Assembly (NCBI GenBank): GCA_027577595.1
Contig: JANBRJ010000134.1
Coordinates: forward strand, 1 to 32,863
Direction: 5' to 3'
From: Coemansia sp. RSA 487
Taxonomy: Eukaryota; Kickxellomycota; Kickxellomycetes; Kickxellales; Kickxellaceae
Length of the DNA stretch: 32,863 nucleotides
The stretch's first letter is position 1. Each line of letters starts with the position of its first letter. Shown here in pieces: positions 21,036-32,863 of the stretch. The translations under genes and the position numbers were made by a program. The notes under the pieces were generated by a model. It had not been told where the DNA came from. It saw only the letters and a program-made list of their open reading frames with translations, and ran no database searches.

Positions 21036-22895
21036 TTAGTAGTACGAGCCAGCTGGCGCAGTGGCAGCGTACGTGCCGCCGGTCTCCTCGCAGGGCGTGG
21101 AAGCAGCAGCGCCAGACGATGGTGCACCAGAGGAGCCGCTAGCATACGAGGGCATGGATGCTGCAGGCGCCGCAGATGACGGAGGCGCAGCGCTGTAAAC
21201 TGGAGCAACGCTGGTGGGCGCCTCAGACGACGGAAGCGCGGCGCTGTAGACCGGGGCGGCGCTGGAGTTTGCCTGCGACGACGGGAGCACTTCTTGCGGC
21301 TGCGTCACGGTCTGGTAAACAGTGGTCGGAGCAGGGGCCGGAGCGGTGACGGTCTGGTACGCAGTCTCTGTCGCAACACTCGTCACGGTTGACACGACAG
21401 TTTCGGTGCTTGGTGCCGGCGCAGGGGCGGTGACAGTTTGAACCTGGGTTTCAGTCTCAACACACGTGGTGGTAGACACAACAGTCTCAGTGCTCGGTGC
21501 TGGCGCTGGGGCAGTGACAGTTTCGGTAACAACGCTGGTCTGCACATATGGCACGTAGACGGGCTTGGTAACCGTAGAGTACTGGACTTCAGTCTGCACA
21601 ACCGTAGTGGGGACAGTCATGGTTGAATACTCGGTGGAGTACACTACCTGGACGGTTGGCACGGTCTTGTAGATGACGCTAGGAACGGTCTGCATGACGA
21701 CCGACGTCTCGTAAACCGTGGTTGGAACAGGAACAGTCACATACTGCGGCGCGGTTGGCGTCGGTTGCGAGATCTCTTGTGATGCCTCGACGCTTCCCGG
21801 TGTCGTTTCGCAAGGAGTGGTTGCCGCGCCTGGGACTGACCCTCCAGGAGTGCTGCCTCCTGGAACTGATTCGCCAGGGGTGCTTCCTCCTGGAGCTGAT
21901 TCACCAGGCGAAGTCTCGCAAGGGGTAGTGGCAGCACCCGGAACCGACTCGGCTGGTGTGCTGGCTCCAGGGACCGATTCAGCGGGAGTGCTACCGCCTG
22001 GAACTGATCCGGCAGGAGTGCTTGCTCCGGGAACCGACTCTGCAGGAGTGCTAGCACCGGGAGATGATTCAGCTGGGGTACTACCACCGGGAACTGACTC
22101 TGCAGGAGTACTAGCGCCGGGAACTGATTCAGCGGGGGTGCTTGCACCTGGGACTGATTCAGCAGGAGTGCTACCACCGGGAACGGATTCTCCAGGAGTG
22201 CCAGTATTGTATCCACCGCCGGGAGTGGTTTCACAAGGAGTGGATTCGGCAGGGGTTCCGCCTCCAGGAGTGCTTGCACCAGGAGAACCGCCGCCGGGAG
22301 AGCTCTCGCCAGGCGACCCACCACCGGGAGAGCTTGCGCCAGGAGTGCCAGTATTGTATCCACCGCCGGGAGTGGTTTCACAAGGAGTGGATTCGGTAGG
22401 AGATCCGCCTCCAGGTGTCGATGCAGTTGGAGATCCGCCACCTGGAGTAGAAGCTCCAGGAGACCCACCGCCGGGGGTGCTTGAGCCAGGAATGCTCTCG
22501 CCCGGAGTCGATTCACCAGGGCTGCTCTCACCGGGTGATGATTCGCCAGGAGACGATGCTCCAGGGCTGCTTTCTCCTGGGCTGCTCTCGCCAGGAGACG
22601 ATTCACCAGGGCTGCTCTCACCGGGTGATGATTCACCAGGGCTGCTCTCACCAGGTGACGATTCGCCAGGGCTGCTCTCGCCGGGAGAAGATTCGCCAGG
22701 AGCGGATACATCAGTGTTAACTTCCTGGGTCGCGCGGCCATAATGATCAACATCGTAAAGCGGCTGCATGTAGTAGTTGTACGGCGCATTGCTCGCGGGT
22801 GCCTCAACAGCGTAGTCGGCAGGAGCGACCTCCCTGTACGATGCAGCAGCCAGAGAGGCAAAAGCAAGAGTGGCGATCTGAATCTTGGTATTCAT
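21036..22895 (-). CDS. Repeat-rich secreted cell-wall-type protein
   Basis: 619 residues from the ATG at 22893-22895. A signal peptide (MNTKIQIATLAFASLAAAS) is followed by a Tyr-rich segment, then about 300 residues of short tandem repeats based on SPGES, STPGG and SVPGA units with interspersed TPCET/YNTGTP blocks. A Thr/Val-rich region follows, with TVTAPAPAPSTETVVST recurring three times (about residues 440-520), then an Ala/Ser/Pro end closing in GSYY. There is no hydrophobic GPI tail, so it may be held by cross-links or released. Scattered Cys sit in TPCET-type repeats. The design is that of a mucin-like wall or adhesin protein. The repeat DNA leaves several other frames open, which are by-products. 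Confidence 0.8.
   Translation of the reverse strand: MNTKIQIATLAFASLAAASYREVAPADYAVEAPASNAPYNYYMQPLYDVDHYGRATQEVNTDVSAPGESSPGESSPGESSPGESSPGESSPGESSPGESSPGESSPGESSPGASSPGESSPGESSPGESTPGESIPGSSTPGGGSPGASTPGGGSPTASTPGGGSPTESTPCETTPGGGYNTGTPGASSPGGGSPGESSPGGGSPGASTPGGGTPAESTPCETTPGGGYNTGTPGESVPGGSTPAESVPGASTPAESVPGASTPAESVPGGSTPAESSPGASTPAESVPGASTPAGSVPGGSTPAESVPGASTPAESVPGAATTPCETSPGESAPGGSTPGESVPGGSTPGGSVPGAATTPCETTPGSVEASQEISQPTPTAPQYVTVPVPTTVYETSVVMQTVPSVIYKTVPTVQVVYSTEYSTMTVPTTVVQTEVQYSTVTKPVYVPYVQTSVVTETVTAPAPAPSTETVVSTTTCVETETQVQTVTAPAPAPSTETVVSTVTSVATETAYQTVTAPAPAPTTVYQTVTQPQEVLPSSQANSSAAPVYSAALPSSEAPTSVAPVYSAAPPSSAAPAASMPSYASGSSGAPSSGAAASTPCEETGGTYAATAPAGSYY
21834..22715. repeat. Minisatellite encoding SPGES-type repeats
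   Basis: Tandem 15-bp and related units (a tctccaggagaagat-like word with variants) inside the 619-aa gene. The 22,500-22,715 end is the most regular. Such coding minisatellites change length easily, so alleles probably differ between strains. Confidence 0.7.
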
Positions 22896-26715: not shown

Positions 26716-27753
26716 ATGATAAACATCACAATCAAGTGCTCCGGCGACAAAAAGGTTAATTTGGAGGTAGATGAAGCGACCATCACCGTTTTGGAAGTTA
26801 AGGAAAGGATAGCCGAGCAATTAGAAGACACGCCAGCCAGTAGTCAGCGGCTTATTTTTGCAGGTCGCATTCTAAAGGACACTGAAAAACTATCTGACCA
26901 CAAGGTGGCTGATGGCAATACTATCCATATGGTGAAGAGCGGGGCAAAGAAGCAGACTGCTGCTAGCGCGGCTTCTTTGGCGGGTGCAGCCATTCGCGAC
27001 GACAGTGCTGCTGCGTCGACTGGAGTATCCTCAGGTTCACCGGGGGCAACTGGAGGCGCGCAGGAGCCGTCGGCAACTGGTGCTGCGACAAACCCATGGG
27101 GCGGAATGGGAGACATGGGAGACATGGCATCGATGCTCGGCATGGGTGGAATGGGTGGAATGGGCGGTATGGGCGGTATGGGTGGCGATATGCCGCATAT
27201 GTCGCCCGAGATGCTCGAGCAAATGTACTCCAACCCAATGGTACAGCAGATGATGCAGCAAGTGATGTCGAACCCAGAGCTGCTGCGCTCGATGATCGAT
27301 AGCAACCCAATGCTCCAGCAACGCATGACGCCTCAGATGCGCGAGATGATGAGCAACCCCGAATTCCTCCGCATGGCAACAAATCCAGAGATGATGCGTG
27401 CTGCCGCTCAGATGCAATCAGTAATGAATCGGGCACAACAACAACAGGGTCAGTCTCCGCCCCTTCAAGGACAGCAGCAGCAATCGAATCCAATGGCTGG
27501 CAATAACCCACTGGCAGCGCTCCTAGGCGGTGCTGGCGGTGGTGGTGGTTTTGGCGGCTTTGGCGGAATGTCTCCTCCTTCTCAAGCACCAACTGATAAT
27601 CAGCAGCCAGCAGAGGAACGCTACCAACAACAGCTCCAGCAATTGGCCGATATGGGATTCCGGAACGTCAACCAGAATATCCGTGCATTGACGCTGACCG
27701 GTGGCGACGTCCAAGCAGCTATCGAATACTTGCTCAGCAATCCAGGGTACTGA
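26716..27753 (+). CDS. DSK2: Dsk2/ubiquilin ubiquitin-receptor shuttle
   Basis: 345 residues from the ATG at 26716. Residues 1-74 are a ubiquitin-like domain (MINITIKCSG..., with RLIFAGRILKD as in ubiquitin and Dsk2). A Gly/Met-rich linker (about 128-158, GGM repeats) leads to an STI1-type helical region (about 163-235) with repeated SNPE/SNPM units. The end (about 300-345, YQQQLQQLADMGF...LLSNPGY) is a UBA domain that binds ubiquitin chains. Dsk2 carries ubiquitylated proteins to the proteasome in the cytosol and nucleus. Length is close to yeast Dsk2 (373). The upstream in-frame stretch is hydrophobic and unlike the family, so this ATG is preferred. Confidence 0.95.
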   Translation: MINITIKCSGDKKVNLEVDEATITVLEVKERIAEQLEDTPASSQRLIFAGRILKDTEKLSDHKVADGNTIHMVKSGAKKQTAASAASLAGAAIRDDSAAASTGVSSGSPGATGGAQEPSATGAATNPWGGMGDMGDMASMLGMGGMGGMGGMGGMGGDMPHMSPEMLEQMYSNPMVQQMMQQVMSNPELLRSMIDSNPMLQQRMTPQMREMMSNPEFLRMATNPEMMRAAAQMQSVMNRAQQQQGQSPPLQGQQQQSNPMAGNNPLAALLGGAGGGGGFGGFGGMSPPSQAPTDNQQPAEERYQQQLQQLADMGFRNVNQNIRALTLTGGDVQAAIEYLLSNPGY

Positions 27754-28927: not shown

Positions 28928-29578
28928 TTACTTCTTTCTCCGTAGAAAACTCGATATTCCTGTGGTAGGTGGCCGTGTCTGTGCTTCCAAAAGCTGCGTC
29001 AGGCGTTCAATCTCCTGCTGCTGGCTATCACAAATATCATTAGAGTCCACCAGGTTTTCTGACAGTTGGTGGATTGTGGACTCTAGCTCATTGAGGTCGC
29101 CTTCATGTTTCGATTTCAGCTGAACCACTGAAGTGACCAATTCATTAAGAATCTCTTTGTAGTAGTCGTCGTAGTTAGCGTAGATATCTTTATCCGGCAT
29201 ATCCATGCCAAGCCCAGCAAAACATTCACACAGACTGCTGATACTTAAAGTTTGGTCGAGCTCTATCTTTGCGTATGACAATGAACTAGATGCAGTCTGC
29301 GGTTGGGGGTTATTCGCCGAACTGTTGCTGCTTCTGTTGCTGTTGCTGTTTTCGTCCTCATTAATGTCAATGTAAAGAACCAGTGATGGGCCATGGTGCC
29401 CTTTGTTGCATAGCGGACATGAGCTGTTTGAGCTGCTTGGCAGCCACTGATCGATACAGACTTTGTGGAATACGTGTCCACAGCTAAGCGCTGCTTGTTG
29501 GAGCTGCGACTGAGATGTGGAAGACGAAGACTCGAGGTTTGGCCCAAATAGCGACTCTTGGCAAATACTACAACCCAT
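28928..29578 (-). CDS. RING-H2/coiled-coil protein, paralogue 1 (TRAIP-like layout)
   Basis: 216 residues from the ATG at 29576-29578. An N-terminal RING-H2 finger uses C3, C6, C33, H35, H38, C41, C54 and C57 (CSIC, CGHVFHKVC, CPLC), so it is a candidate E3 ubiquitin ligase. GPSLVLYIDI follows, placed like the short hydrophobic strand after the RING in TRAIP. Then comes a Ser/Asn-rich linker, the block SLCECFAGLGMDMP (about 122-135), NELVTSVVQLKSKHE and a coiled coil to a basic end (FLRRKK). First of four related minus-strand copies. Substrate and partners unknown. The TRAIP comparison is of layout only. Confidence 0.8.
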   Translation of the reverse strand: MGCSICQESLFGPNLESSSSTSQSQLQQAALSCGHVFHKVCIDQWLPSSSNSSCPLCNKGHHGPSLVLYIDINEDENSNSNRSSNSSANNPQPQTASSSLSYAKIELDQTLSISSLCECFAGLGMDMPDKDIYANYDDYYKEILNELVTSVVQLKSKHEGDLNELESTIHQLSENLVDSNDICDSQQQEIERLTQLLEAQTRPPTTGISSFLRRKK

Positions 29579-30335
29579 TTTGATAATGTATAATGTATAA
29601 TATGCAAGTCGATAATCGAAAAGAAAAAGAAGAGCTTTTTTAAAAAAAAACCTTGAAACACAAGAATTGAAATGAGGACGAGGCAAATCAAAAAAACGTC
29701 AACTTAAAGCCACAAGCGCCAATAACATTTTGAAATTAACTTGTGTGTTGAAAAGAGTCTACACATATTTACAAGTATAAAATGAGGAACAAAATAAACA
29801 CTTAAAGTGACAGGGTAAACGTGTCAACTTGTTGAATGTCATATCTGTCACAACTGCATACAAAGGCAGGACCCATATGGTACTGCGGATAGGCTCCGCT
29901 TGTCAAAATTGCACTTTAAACCTCCAGTGAATCCTTGCCTTGTCTAGAATTTTGCTGACAATAGCATTGTTTGTACATTTGTATTTGACAACCTTAGATA
30001 ATTTGAGGTGTGGCTTGAGTTTTGGCGCTGGTTAGTTTTGTGGGTTTTTTTAGCGATTTATTAGGAATTCCGAATACGTAAACTACATGAAAACGCTATT
30101 GTTTCCCTCGTTTCCTAGACAGCACTAGGTGGCTAACACGCCGCTCTTTCGTTTAGCAGCGGCCGTGCAGTATAGAGCATGGTACTTTCTTGTATACCAG
30201 AGACTTAGGGTTTGCCATCTTTTCAGAGCACAAGAGGTGTTTAAATATTTCCCGATCCAACGAATAGAGTGCTCTTTTTCTTAAAGGAAGCCACGCTTAT
30301 TGCTTAATGAAGAGGAATGTATGAAAACGAGCTCT
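29579..30335. other. Intergenic stretch between RING paralogues 1 and 2
   Basis: 757 bp with no supportable gene. AT-rich, with no clear TATA box on either strand. The promoter of paralogue 1 lies in its left part, and the rest is unassigned. Confidence 0.4.
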
Positions 30336-30959
30336 TTAGTAGTCGCCTTGTCTCTTTTTTGCCAGCCCCGTGATGTGCCTTCTGTGCGCTTCCGAGAGCT
30401 TGGTCAGACGAGCAATTTCATTCTCATGGACTCTGCAAAGATCGTTGGAGTGCTTCAGGTCTCCTGCCAGCTTGTCGATCCTGGCTTGCAGTTTTCCTCT
30501 ATCGTCCTCATGCTTTGATACAAGCTGGGCCGTTGAAGCGACAAGTTCATCCAGCATTACATCGCAATAATCGCTGTAGCCCTCGTAATCGCTTGGTCCC
30601 GGTATATCCATGCCTAGTTCTGCAAAGCATTCGCATAATCTGTAAACATCCAAAGTTTGGCCTGTTTCCCTTGGTGGCGATGAGCTGGAAGCAGCAGTTT
30701 GAGGTTGGGTATTATTACTAGGTCTGCTGCTTTTTTCGTCCTCGTCAGCTTCAATATAGAGAACAAGCGCTGGTCCACAGTGCCTCTTGTGGCACAATGG
30801 ACACGAATTATTCGAGCTGCTTGCAAACCACTTGTCGATACATGTCCCGTGGAAAACATGCCCACAGCTCAGTGCTGCTGGTTTGAGACGAGACGACGTA
30901 GGTGCACTGTTGGAGCTTTCCAGCCTAAACAGCGGGTCTTGGCAAATACTACACCCCAT
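30336..30959 (-). CDS. RING-H2/coiled-coil protein, paralogue 2
   Basis: 207 residues from the ATG at 30957-30959. RING ligands C3, C6, C32, H34, H37, C40, C53 and C56 are complete. GPALVLYIEADEDE follows, then a Ser/Pro/Thr linker shorter than in paralogue 1, LCECFAELGMDIP, LDELVASTAQLVSKHEDD and a coiled coil ending in KKRQGDY. Compared with paralogue 1, the RING and the LCECF block are close while the linker differs strongly. Confidence 0.8.
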   Translation of the reverse strand: MGCSICQDPLFRLESSNSAPTSSRLKPAALSCGHVFHGTCIDKWFASSSNNSCPLCHKRHCGPALVLYIEADEDEKSSRPSNNTQPQTAASSSSPPRETGQTLDVYRLCECFAELGMDIPGPSDYEGYSDYCDVMLDELVASTAQLVSKHEDDRGKLQARIDKLAGDLKHSNDLCRVHENEIARLTKLSEAHRRHITGLAKKRQGDY

Positions 30960-31287
30960 CGGATAGTTTATGGAAAAAAAGGAGCTGTAAGAAAAACTTT
31001 AGAAATACAAAATAATAAAGTAAACTAGAAATGTTGATTTAAAGCCACCTTCACCAAGAGGAGAAAAAGAAAACACATATGGAGACAAATTGACAAATTG
31101 ACAATCTTATCCTTTTTTGACAATATGTTTGGTTCTTCCCTCGATAAATGCTATCACTCCATGATCTTTAGAAAGCTTGGGAATGTCAAAGTTCGAAAAT
31201 TACATGTTTGAGGCAATACCTTGTGCATTTAGTAGTTGCATTTTTTGGAAATCAAGCTATGTTTACAATATAAAATAAAATGCTAAT
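30960..31287. other. Intergenic stretch between RING paralogues 2 and 3
   Basis: 328 bp, AT-rich, with no gene or strong promoter signal seen. Confidence 0.4.
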
Positions 31288-32025
31288 TCAATAGTAATGA
31301 ATATCCTCGTCTGAATCCTCGCCGTAGTCTTCAGTGCTGTCAGACCCGTATCTTTCCTCATACCAATCGACAAGATCTTTCTCTCTCTGCAGCGCTGTCT
31401 GTAGCCCTGCGATGTGCTGCTTATGTGCCTCCGCAAGTTTATTCAGACGATCGACCTCATCTTGCTGCTCCTCCAGATAGCCCTCCAGCCGGTTGATCCT
31501 GAACTCCAGTCTCCCACGATCGTCCTCGTGCTTCAAAACCAGCTGCCCCGTTGATGCGACCAGTTCATCCAGCAGCTCTCCGCAATATTCATTGTAGCTC
31601 GAATAGTAGTTTTGTTCTGGTGCTTTGATACCCAGCTCATCAAAGCATTCACACAGCTTGTCAGCATCCATTGTTTGGCTAGCTGCCCTTTTGTATAACG
31701 ATGAGCCGGAAGCGGTGGTTTTCCGTTGGTTATTCTTCCTTGGTCTGCTGCTGCTGTTGTTGTTGTTGTTGTTTCTGGTGCTGCTGCTGCTTTCGTTTTC
31801 GTCTGCGTCGATATAGAGAACCAGCGCTGGGCCATGATGCTCCCTGGTACATAGCGGACACGTATGGTTTTCATTGCTTGATATCCACCGGTTAATACAG
31901 GCTTTGTGAAAGACGTGTCCGCAGTTCAGTGCTGCTGGCTGGAGACGAGCCACGGCAGAAGACGTAGATGTATTGCTGGCACTTGCCAGCCTAAGCAGCG
32001 AGTCCTGACATATACTACAAACCAT
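31288..32025 (-). CDS. RING-H2/coiled-coil protein, paralogue 3
   Basis: 245 residues from the ATG at 32023-32025. RING ligands C3, C6, C35, H37, H40, C43, C56 and C59 are complete, followed by GPALVLYIDADE. The linker is Asn/Ser-rich with a run of six Asn, encoded partly by GTT-type repeats. LCECFDELGIKAP and LDELVASTGQLVLKHEDD come next, then the longest coiled coil of the set. The end is acidic (DSTEDYGEDSDEDIHYY), unlike the basic end of paralogue 1. The copies therefore share the two blocks but differ in linker and tail. Confidence 0.8.
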   Translation of the reverse strand: MVCSICQDSLLRLASASNTSTSSAVARLQPAALNCGHVFHKACINRWISSNENHTCPLCTREHHGPALVLYIDADENESSSSTRNNNNNNSSSRPRKNNQRKTTASGSSLYKRAASQTMDADKLCECFDELGIKAPEQNYYSSYNEYCGELLDELVASTGQLVLKHEDDRGRLEFRINRLEGYLEEQQDEVDRLNKLAEAHKQHIAGLQTALQREKDLVDWYEERYGSDSTEDYGEDSDEDIHYY

Positions 32026-32568
32026 TTGATAATGAGCTAGAGTTGGTGGTTTATTAAAAACAAGTTGATAAAAAGCATGAGGGAGGCTAAACACAAGAGT
32101 TGGAAAAATAATAAATTATAGTTGGCTAGTATGAAACAATTATTGCGAAAAAGAAAAGAAAAAGAAATCAGAGTAAGGGAGTAGGTGAAGCAATATATTA
32201 TCGTTTTTTGGGTGCTGCCCCAGGGTTTAGACACTACTTCAAGGTGCCAAATTATGTATGTGTGAAGCTGCACATATAAAACACCTTAATTAGGACAGCA
32301 TTGATATAAGCTAATATATCTGAAGAGGGTTTCCACGTGCACTAAGGGGAAACTGCCCGTCATTCGGAAAAGGGAGTATATATGGTGGTGGTCATCAGGA
32401 TTAGCATGTCTAATTATAGATTACAAACAGGCGCAGGGCTCTCCTGTAAAGCAATGGCATGTATACCACTGTGGATGGATTTGTGTGTCGAAAATTCAAG
32501 TTTTAAAAGCTCCAAGGAAATCCAAGCACTATCCAAACACTCATTCGCTTGGTTCTTTTTGGTTTACA
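32026..32568. other. Intergenic stretch between RING paralogue 3 and the broken copy
   Basis: 543 bp. A plus-strand catataaaac (near 32,272) and gagtatatatgg (near 32,371) look like TATA boxes facing right, but no matching plus-strand gene is seen. AT-rich. Confidence 0.4.
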
Positions 32569-32863
32569 TCAAAAATAGGGAAAGAAGCAATCCAATAGCA
32601 ATAGCCATTTTCTGAACCCTCTTTCATCATCGTCGTCGTAGCCGTCATCTTCGCCAGACCCGTACCTTTCCTCATAACAAGCAGCAATAGTCATCGTGGC
32701 TCGAATAGCAGTATTTCTCTGGCACATCCACGCCTAGTTCGCCAAGGCACTCACACCACAGCCTGTCGATACCCAGTGCTTGGTTAGCTGTCCTTGACGA
32801 TGATGGCCTGGGTGCATTAGCCTGCTGTTGGTTGTTGCTGTTGCCGTTGCCGTTCAAGCGATT
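32569..32863 (-). pseudogene. Broken fourth RING-H2/coiled-coil copy, partial at window edge
   Basis: On the minus strand the frame runs in from the window edge with an Asn/Gln-rich linker, then LWCECLGELGVDVP and SSHDDYC, matching the LCECFxxLG block and the next segment of the other copies. It then stops. Right behind the stop, in another frame, comes YEERYGSGEDDGYDDDDE, which matches the acidic tail region of paralogue 3. The ELV coiled coil between these two points is missing, so an internal deletion of roughly 80 codons near 32,676-32,684 has joined the two parts out of frame. The RING half lies beyond the window and cannot be judged. Confidence 0.7.

Follow-up and report, generated by a model that had tools for sequence, protein, structure and literature searches.

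The window analyzed here is the whole stretch of 32,863 nucleotides from contig JANBRJ010000134.1 of Coemansia sp. RSA 487. Three intact genes lie head-to-tail on its minus strand as uninterrupted frames: copy A (31288..32025, 245 amino acids), copy B (30336..30959, 207 amino acids) and copy C (28928..29578, 216 amino acids), with pairwise identities of 47-58%. All three proteins share a RING-H2 finger, a GPxLVLYI strand after the RING, an LCECFxxLG-x3-P block, a Tyr-rich stretch and the ELV start of a long helix; the linker of copy A is N/S-rich. The tails differ, being acidic in A, short in B and basic in C.

The RING-H2 fingers, located by Pfam matches, occupy 31849..32022 in copy A, 30792..30953 in copy B and 29405..29572 in copy C (all on the minus strand). 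Pfam matches over the cut-off in the three copies are to RING families only, with PF12678 (zf-rbx1) the best match in each (E 1.2e-12 to 1.5e-11) and PF13639 also over the cut-off in each. The eight zinc ligands follow the RING-H2 order (C3H2C3) in all three intact copies, and Ile5 (between the first Cys pair), Trp47 and Pro57, the positions usually named as RING E2 contacts, are invariant. This pattern, including the Ile, Trp and Pro, is that of RING-H2 E3 ligases (PF12678/PF13639), from which copies A-C differ in the long first loop (25-28 residues) and in the 12-residue spacing of ligands six and seven. The AlphaFold confidence for the RING, with three paralogues as input, was low. The residue right after the last RING Cys, the usual site of the linchpin Arg/Lys, which is not universal among RINGs, is Thr in A, His in B and Asn in C, with Arg or Lys found one position later in all three copies. 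Among the other 26 RINGs of the genome (all non-window zf-rbx1 matches), 20 carry Arg or Lys at this site and 6 do not. The missing linchpin concerns activity rather than fold; if the linchpin matters, activity might be weak or a different E2 might be needed.

The LCECF block together with the Tyr-rich stretch, delimited by repeat D2 and alignment, maps to 31582..31654 in copy A, 30564..30636 in copy B and 29159..29231 in copy C (minus strand). A predicted structure of the block, proposed as a check in the first-pass annotation, was obtained with AlphaFold and presents the block as a short helix ahead of a predicted helix of 66-83 residues. In copy A, the long helix spans residues 144-226 (31348..31596, minus strand), with ten-residue mean pLDDT values of 74-94 over residues 141-230; in copy C, it comprises 66 residues (28976..29173, minus strand), and the mean pLDDT of block plus coil is 83. 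No convincing relative of the block was found in Pfam, among solved structures or in the rest of this genome, and the earlier description of a tandem RING-H2/coiled-coil family with an unrecognized block is supported within what these searches covered. When the copy C block was compared with solved structures by sequence, three matches were obtained to E 10, of which the best, a nicking endonuclease (E 0.081), was taken as chance. The full-length model had no matches to known structures at E 10, and the block-coil model had 14 matches with a best E of only 2.0; with a profile of copies A-C, the best 60 of 76 matches to solved structures (E <=0.1) fell within the RING or immediately beyond it. 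In the titles and abstract openings of the papers listed on TRAIP, RING-ligase expansion, fungi, Kickxellales and LCECF, no family like A-C is named.

The searches covered one fungal genome, namely this one, and viral and prokaryote collections. Because RING peptides were the queries in the viral and prokaryote scans, these say nothing on the block. The viral contigs yielded 45 pattern matches, none of which was confirmed, and the prokaryote contigs yielded 22, with a single confirmed match, a RING in Lentzea aerocolonigenes that covers residues 2-65 only.

Two further copies are broken. Copy D (32672..32863, minus strand) is a frame open to the contig end that encodes the linker, an LWCECLGELG block and the Tyr-rich stretch (the latter two at 32684..32756, minus strand, repeat D2), followed by a stop, without the coil. 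Aligned with A, copy D lacks approximately 212 bases after the Tyr-rich stretch, a length that is not divisible by three, and it is due to this frame-shifting deletion that the coil is lost and a stop comes next. A stretch similar to the acidic tail of A (YEERYGS...) is retained at 32629..32687 on the minus strand (repeat D6, 75% to 31315-31373), mostly out of the frame of D after the deletion. The first-pass annotation listed three intact neighbors and a broken copy with the same RING, strand and LCECFxxLG block. The three neighbors are confirmed by their frames, Pfam RING matches and shared parts, but the RING and strand of copy D cannot be claimed given that both positions fall beyond the contig end, and its block departs from the LCECFxxLG form. 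At the contig edge, there is also a 40-base match to contig C42 that is partly a trinucleotide repeat, with about 10 bases beyond the repeat. The other broken copy, the fifth in all and absent from the earlier annotation, is a decayed one on contig C27 of the same genome, which is matched by copy A in two frames (E 3e-14; DNA 75% over 167 bases).

Copies A-C are old (dS among them >1) and are under purifying selection, with a pooled pN/pS of 0.43 overall (0.36-0.52). The region-by-region comparison of the dN/dS type suggested in the first-pass annotation, run here across the copies, gave values of 0.34-0.52 in every region (RING 0.34, block 0.38, coil 0.49, linker 0.52, the last with a bootstrap range of 0.35-0.78). 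Random mutation of copy A to the A-C divergence (0.39) kept the frame open in 0 of 500 runs, with a mean of 9.0 stops. The broken state of copy D and of the copy on C27 might suggest that the locus is a cluster of functionless, decaying duplicates. For A-C, the selection result, the frames that are still open at dS >1 and the outcome of the random runs contradict this possibility, which appears extremely improbable. As had been noticed before, linker length differs among the copies (44, 31 and 38 residues in A, B and C, respectively); of the two causes then considered, fast change under selection is disfavored by the pN/pS of 0.52, and given that no positive selection was seen in the linker of A-C (pooled pN/pS, bootstrap), weaker constraint together with slippage in the N/S/Q runs fits the length changes. 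A shared promoter was not detected in the 300 bases upstream of the copies, where local alignments scored 25, 28 and 29 vs shuffle maxima of 36, 30 and 36 (200 single-base shuffles per alignment). Copies B and C share a 29-base match (72%, repeat D8) in their upstream regions, which was left as chance.

The nearest intact relative, also absent from the first-pass annotation, lies on contig C25 (L004) and is a RING/coil gene with an apparent intron. It is the best match of copy A outside the cluster (C25:75502, E 1.6e-11); searched back, the C25 RING finds as its best non-self matches the three copies of the window (at 9e-13 to 1.3e-11), followed by a match on C82 (4e-10) and further RINGs at 4e-6 or weaker, that is, the C25 gene and the window copies are reciprocally nearest outside the cluster. 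Among the 26 non-window zf-rbx1 matches, the 20 residues after the RING align best with C25 for each window copy (28, 28 and 24 vs 15, 19 and 17 for the next). Like the window copies, the C25 gene encodes a post-RING strand, a Ser/Asn/Gln-containing linker and a coil, with a first loop of 28 and a next spacing of 13; unlike them, it has an apparent intron, a longer coil and C-terminal region, and the linchpin Arg/Lys. The LCECF block was not found in the C25 gene, and comparison of the window block plus coil with the C25 coil exon gave no significant match (best E 0.082). In the RING tree, which was built from 20 rows and 67 retained columns and includes 16 of the 26 other RINGs, the C25 gene is not the sister of the window copies and no branch is starred; a constraint that groups the C25 gene with the window copies and the decayed copy on C27 was not rejected (p-AU 0.229).

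Among known systems, TRAIP has the same order of parts, an N-terminal RING followed by a coil (according to PMC6121587), and this resemblance in layout, pointed out in the first-pass annotation, holds. In sequence, however, it does not extend to a specific link, and it seems improbable that the window genes belong, as divergent members, to the TRAIP family, whose proteins are ubiquitin ligases of the replisome. In the human TRAIP sequence used for comparison, a provisional one, ligands six and seven are likewise spaced by 12 residues, the window proteins have a hydrophobic strand after the RING, and copy C aligns with this provisional sequence over RING and strand (residues 21-70), but the same sequence searched against the genome gave 16 matches, all to RING plus strand at E 9e-5 or weaker, in which the window copies take ranks 4, 5 and 8 while the C25 gene does not appear, so that the window genes are not singled out among the RINGs of the genome. 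The coil and C-terminus of the provisional TRAIP sequence are without likeness to the window proteins. Copies A (EKDLVDWY) and C (TTGISSFL) have tails that agree with the hydrophobic part of the C-terminal PCNA-binding box of TRAIP, with the Gln missing, and the tail of B does not; 2 of 14 other window proteins carry such a pattern within their last 40 residues, as do 75 of 10000 shuffles of the last 20 residues of copy C. TRAIP orthologues are confined to metazoa according to PMC11405719. A DGLGG motif common to the C25 gene and the C-terminus of the provisional TRAIP sequence is not counted as kinship because 235 of 1000 shuffles score equally. TRIM proteins similarly combine a RING with a following coil, but no B-box is among the Pfam rows listed to E 1 for copies A-C (25 of 25, 19 of 19 and 25 of 27). 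RBX1/APC11-type RINGs share with the window copies zf-rbx1 as the best Pfam match, but within the genome the window copies (47-51 bits) are not the best representatives of this family, C3 and C48 reaching 83 and 77 bits, and RBX1 is not known to have a coil.

Taken as a whole, the locus probably encodes a small tandem family of soluble, dimeric RING-H2 E3 ubiquitin ligases that is related to the C25 gene and has evolved through birth and death of copies. The N-terminal RING would bind E2~ubiquitin, the long C-terminal helix, modeled as one chain, could pair with that of a second chain, the block and the differing tails would pick partners, and the N/S/Q linker would act as a flexible spacer. 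A RING/coiled-coil gene like the one that persists on C25 may have given rise to the family by duplication, or the two may have arisen alongside each other; three copies have been kept, one has been cut by a deletion and one has decayed elsewhere. In plants and animals, RING ligases are known to form tandem sets that evolve by birth and death. A less probable scenario is that the proteins are not active ligases but scaffolds or dampening partners that tune the C25 protein, pairing through the coil either with it or among themselves. The kinship to a larger coil protein, and the absence from all three copies of a linchpin that the C25 gene and most other RINGs of the genome possess, are compatible with such a role; yet the zinc ligands and E2-contact residues are maintained under purifying selection, the Arg or Lys one position later could serve instead, and 6 of the 26 other RINGs likewise lack the linchpin. 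Under a more specific and rather unlikely variant, the LCECFxxLG helix and Tyr-rich turn would be an undescribed partner-binding module, and these coil-paired RING ligases, having lost the usual linchpin, would for that reason work only in mixed pairs with a C25-type ligase.

Given that the RING and the coil are of known kinds and that the new block comprises only some 30 residues, the finding is modest as a discovery. Under the preferred reading as a family of ligases, this compact set, together with a likely single-copy kin gene in an apparently small-genome fungus, would show a ligase in the course of changing its tail and its linchpin.

Three intact genes, A (31288-32025), B (30336-30959) and C (28928-29578), lie head to tail on the minus strand as uninterrupted frames, with identities of 58% between A and B, 47% between A and C, and 54% between B and C. 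The encoded parts follow one order: a RING-H2 finger, the GPxLVLYI strand, an acidic start, an N/S/Q-rich linker (44, 31 and 38 residues in A, B and C, respectively), the LCECFxxLG-x3-P block, a Tyr-rich stretch (3-4 tyrosines per 33 residues from LCECF to ELV), a long helix and dissimilar tails. Together with the broken copy D, these neighbors bear out the tandem RING-H2/coiled-coil family proposed in the first-pass annotation. Above the cut-off, A-C match RING families in Pfam, with zf-rbx1 as the top match in all three; the Pfam matches of the coil (e.g., SlyX, ADIP, DUF16) are weak and fall far below it.

Pairwise dS over all codons is 1.2-1.9 (Nei-Gojobori; partly saturated, with no finite value in some regions), and therefore the copies are old. 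The pooled pN/pS is 0.43 (0.36-0.52, bootstrap over columns), with 0.34 for the RING and strand, 0.38 for the block, 0.49 for the coil and 0.52 for the linker (bootstrap limits 0.35-0.78), and such ratios tend to exceed the true dN/dS because pS is near saturation. A, B and C are real, coding, constrained genes. Two explanations had been offered for the variable linker, fast change under selection and repeat slippage. The first is not borne out by pN/pS, which indicates positive selection in none of the regions (the top single value, 0.70, comes from 29 linker codons of A versus B); the second fits, the length differences being located in N/S/Q runs encoded by repeats of a type common in this genome.

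The block was rightly described as unrecognized: it matches no Pfam family above the cut-off, nothing convincing among solved structures and, to an E-value of 1, nothing in the genome outside the cluster. AlphaFold, run with the three paralogs as input, supplies the predicted structure that had been called for: residues 121-130 of A form a short helix, the Pro and most of the Tyr residues fall in a loop, and a single long helix follows, with 83 residues in A and 66 in a piece of C. The block-coil piece of C has a mean pLDDT of 83, against 64 for full-length A, the RING of which is poorly modeled, and a Foldseek search with the models gave no meaningful match. We infer that the block either caps the coil or serves as a site for partner binding.

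Outside the cluster, the best matches of A in the genome (17.8 Mb, 184 contigs, the window being all of contig C134) are a RING at C25:75502 (E 1.6e-11), a decayed copy on contig C27 (2.8e-8) and a RING on C82 (2.1e-7), followed by ordinary RINGs from 8e-5. In the reverse search, the C25 RING retrieved 20 matches including itself, the C27 copy not being among them: A-C came next (9e-13 to 1.3e-11), then C82 (4e-10) and others at 4e-6 or weaker. Over the 20 post-RING residues, outside the zinc core, C25 ranked first for all three copies against 26 non-window zf-rbx1 matches. The RING loops measure 25-28 and 12 residues in the window copies, 28 and 13 in C25, and 26 and 13 in C82 (16 of the 26 non-window RINGs compared). 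The C25 gene (75499 onward), in which an apparent intron separates the RING exon from a 341-codon frame encoding a long coil, whereas A-C are uninterrupted, is by sequence the nearest intact relative of the family. In their N-terminal half, the window proteins thus most likely share ancestry with this gene, as judged from the reciprocal matches, post-RING residues and loop lengths; no likeness is detectable between the C25 and window coils. A RING-only tree neither shows nor rejects this kinship.

Copy D crosses the contig end within its linker, so that any RING would lie outside the visible sequence, and its block reads LWCECLGELG. In an alignment with A, about 212 bases are missing from D past the Tyr-rich stretch, with a frame shift and a stop at 32672-32674, downstream of which comes an out-of-frame tail resembling that of A; as this tail is absent from B and C, A is likely the nearest sister of D. 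The contig edge within the linker of D (32823-32863) is 95% identical over about 40 bases, in part trinucleotide repeat, to an internal site at C42:76733-76772. The fifth copy, at about C27:105708-105931, is decayed, frame-shifted and truncated: Trp and Tyr replace the last two ligand cysteines, a Cys that could still bind zinc takes the place of the second finger histidine, and after the finger the frame changes and GPALVLYIGADES follows, with no trace of the block. The RING tree places this copy alongside those of the window (support 91/100, branch not starred); the copy adjoins a frame that by eye resembles a dihydrouridine synthase. Protein, block and DNA searches of the genome yielded no further copies, the at least 52 DNA matches coming mostly from one trinucleotide-repeat stretch.

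As to the suggested resemblance to TRAIP, the RING-coil order is common to both (a passage of PMC6121587 describes TRAIP as a RING followed by a coil), but no specific sequence link emerged with a human TRAIP query; a passage of PMC11405719 confines TRAIP orthologs to metazoa. The query, possibly inexact, matched 16 RINGs of the genome, all weakly; the window copies ranked fourth, fifth and eighth, C25 was not among the matches, and no likeness to the window proteins extended beyond the post-RING strand. On these grounds the window genes were not assigned to TRAIP, the query being the weak point. The C25 gene product has a C-terminal DGLGG that resembles the TRAIP sequence used, a likeness not beyond chance. 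TRAIP carries a PCNA-binding box, and the tails of A (EKDLVDWY, 31360-31383, minus strand) and C (TTGISSFL, 28943-28966, minus strand) fit the hydrophobic part of its pattern, without the Gln; the tail of B does not fit it. Because 2 of 14 other window proteins carry the pattern in their tails as well, these sequence matches may serve as a lead only.

Other window genes include those for ELP1, an amidase, a phytanoyl-CoA dioxygenase-like protein, a class 3 lipase and a ubiquilin-like protein with ubiquitin and UBA domains (26716-27753, plus strand), a content that marks the contig as eukaryotic and probably fungal. Only the lipase gene separates the ubiquilin-like gene from the nearby RING cluster, a proximity that is probably a coincidence. 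The minus-strand frame at 21036-22895 encodes a secreted-looking protein of 619 amino acids with many SPGES/TPGGG-type repeats, tandem in the DNA as well. A second RING cluster of the genome, at C41:18841-23953, comprises four RING-H2 frames within about 5 kb (three on the plus strand, one on the minus; 218-414 codons between stops), some with apparent membrane stretches by eye. An actinobacterial frame of 783 codons from Lentzea aerocolonigenes (NZ_JYJG01000364.1) has a RING-H2-like finger in its middle.

The A-C family belongs to a known kind, its short block being unmatched in the libraries and genome searched. All zinc ligands and the usual E2-contact residues are kept in the three RINGs, and because they are kept under purifying selection, E2 binding is likely. 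The main rival to an active ligase is a weaker or regulatory role of these proteins, and here the linchpin position, right after the last RING cysteine, is to be weighed along with the kept ligands: it holds Thr in A, His in B and Asn in C, against Arg or Lys in 20 of the 26 other RINGs of the genome, and Arg or Lys stands one position further on in the window copies. In an active ligase, the N-terminal RING would bind the E2, the predicted long helix would pair two chains into a dimer, and the block and tail would choose the targets. The products of A-C are likely to be dimeric ligases, with targets set by the block and tail.
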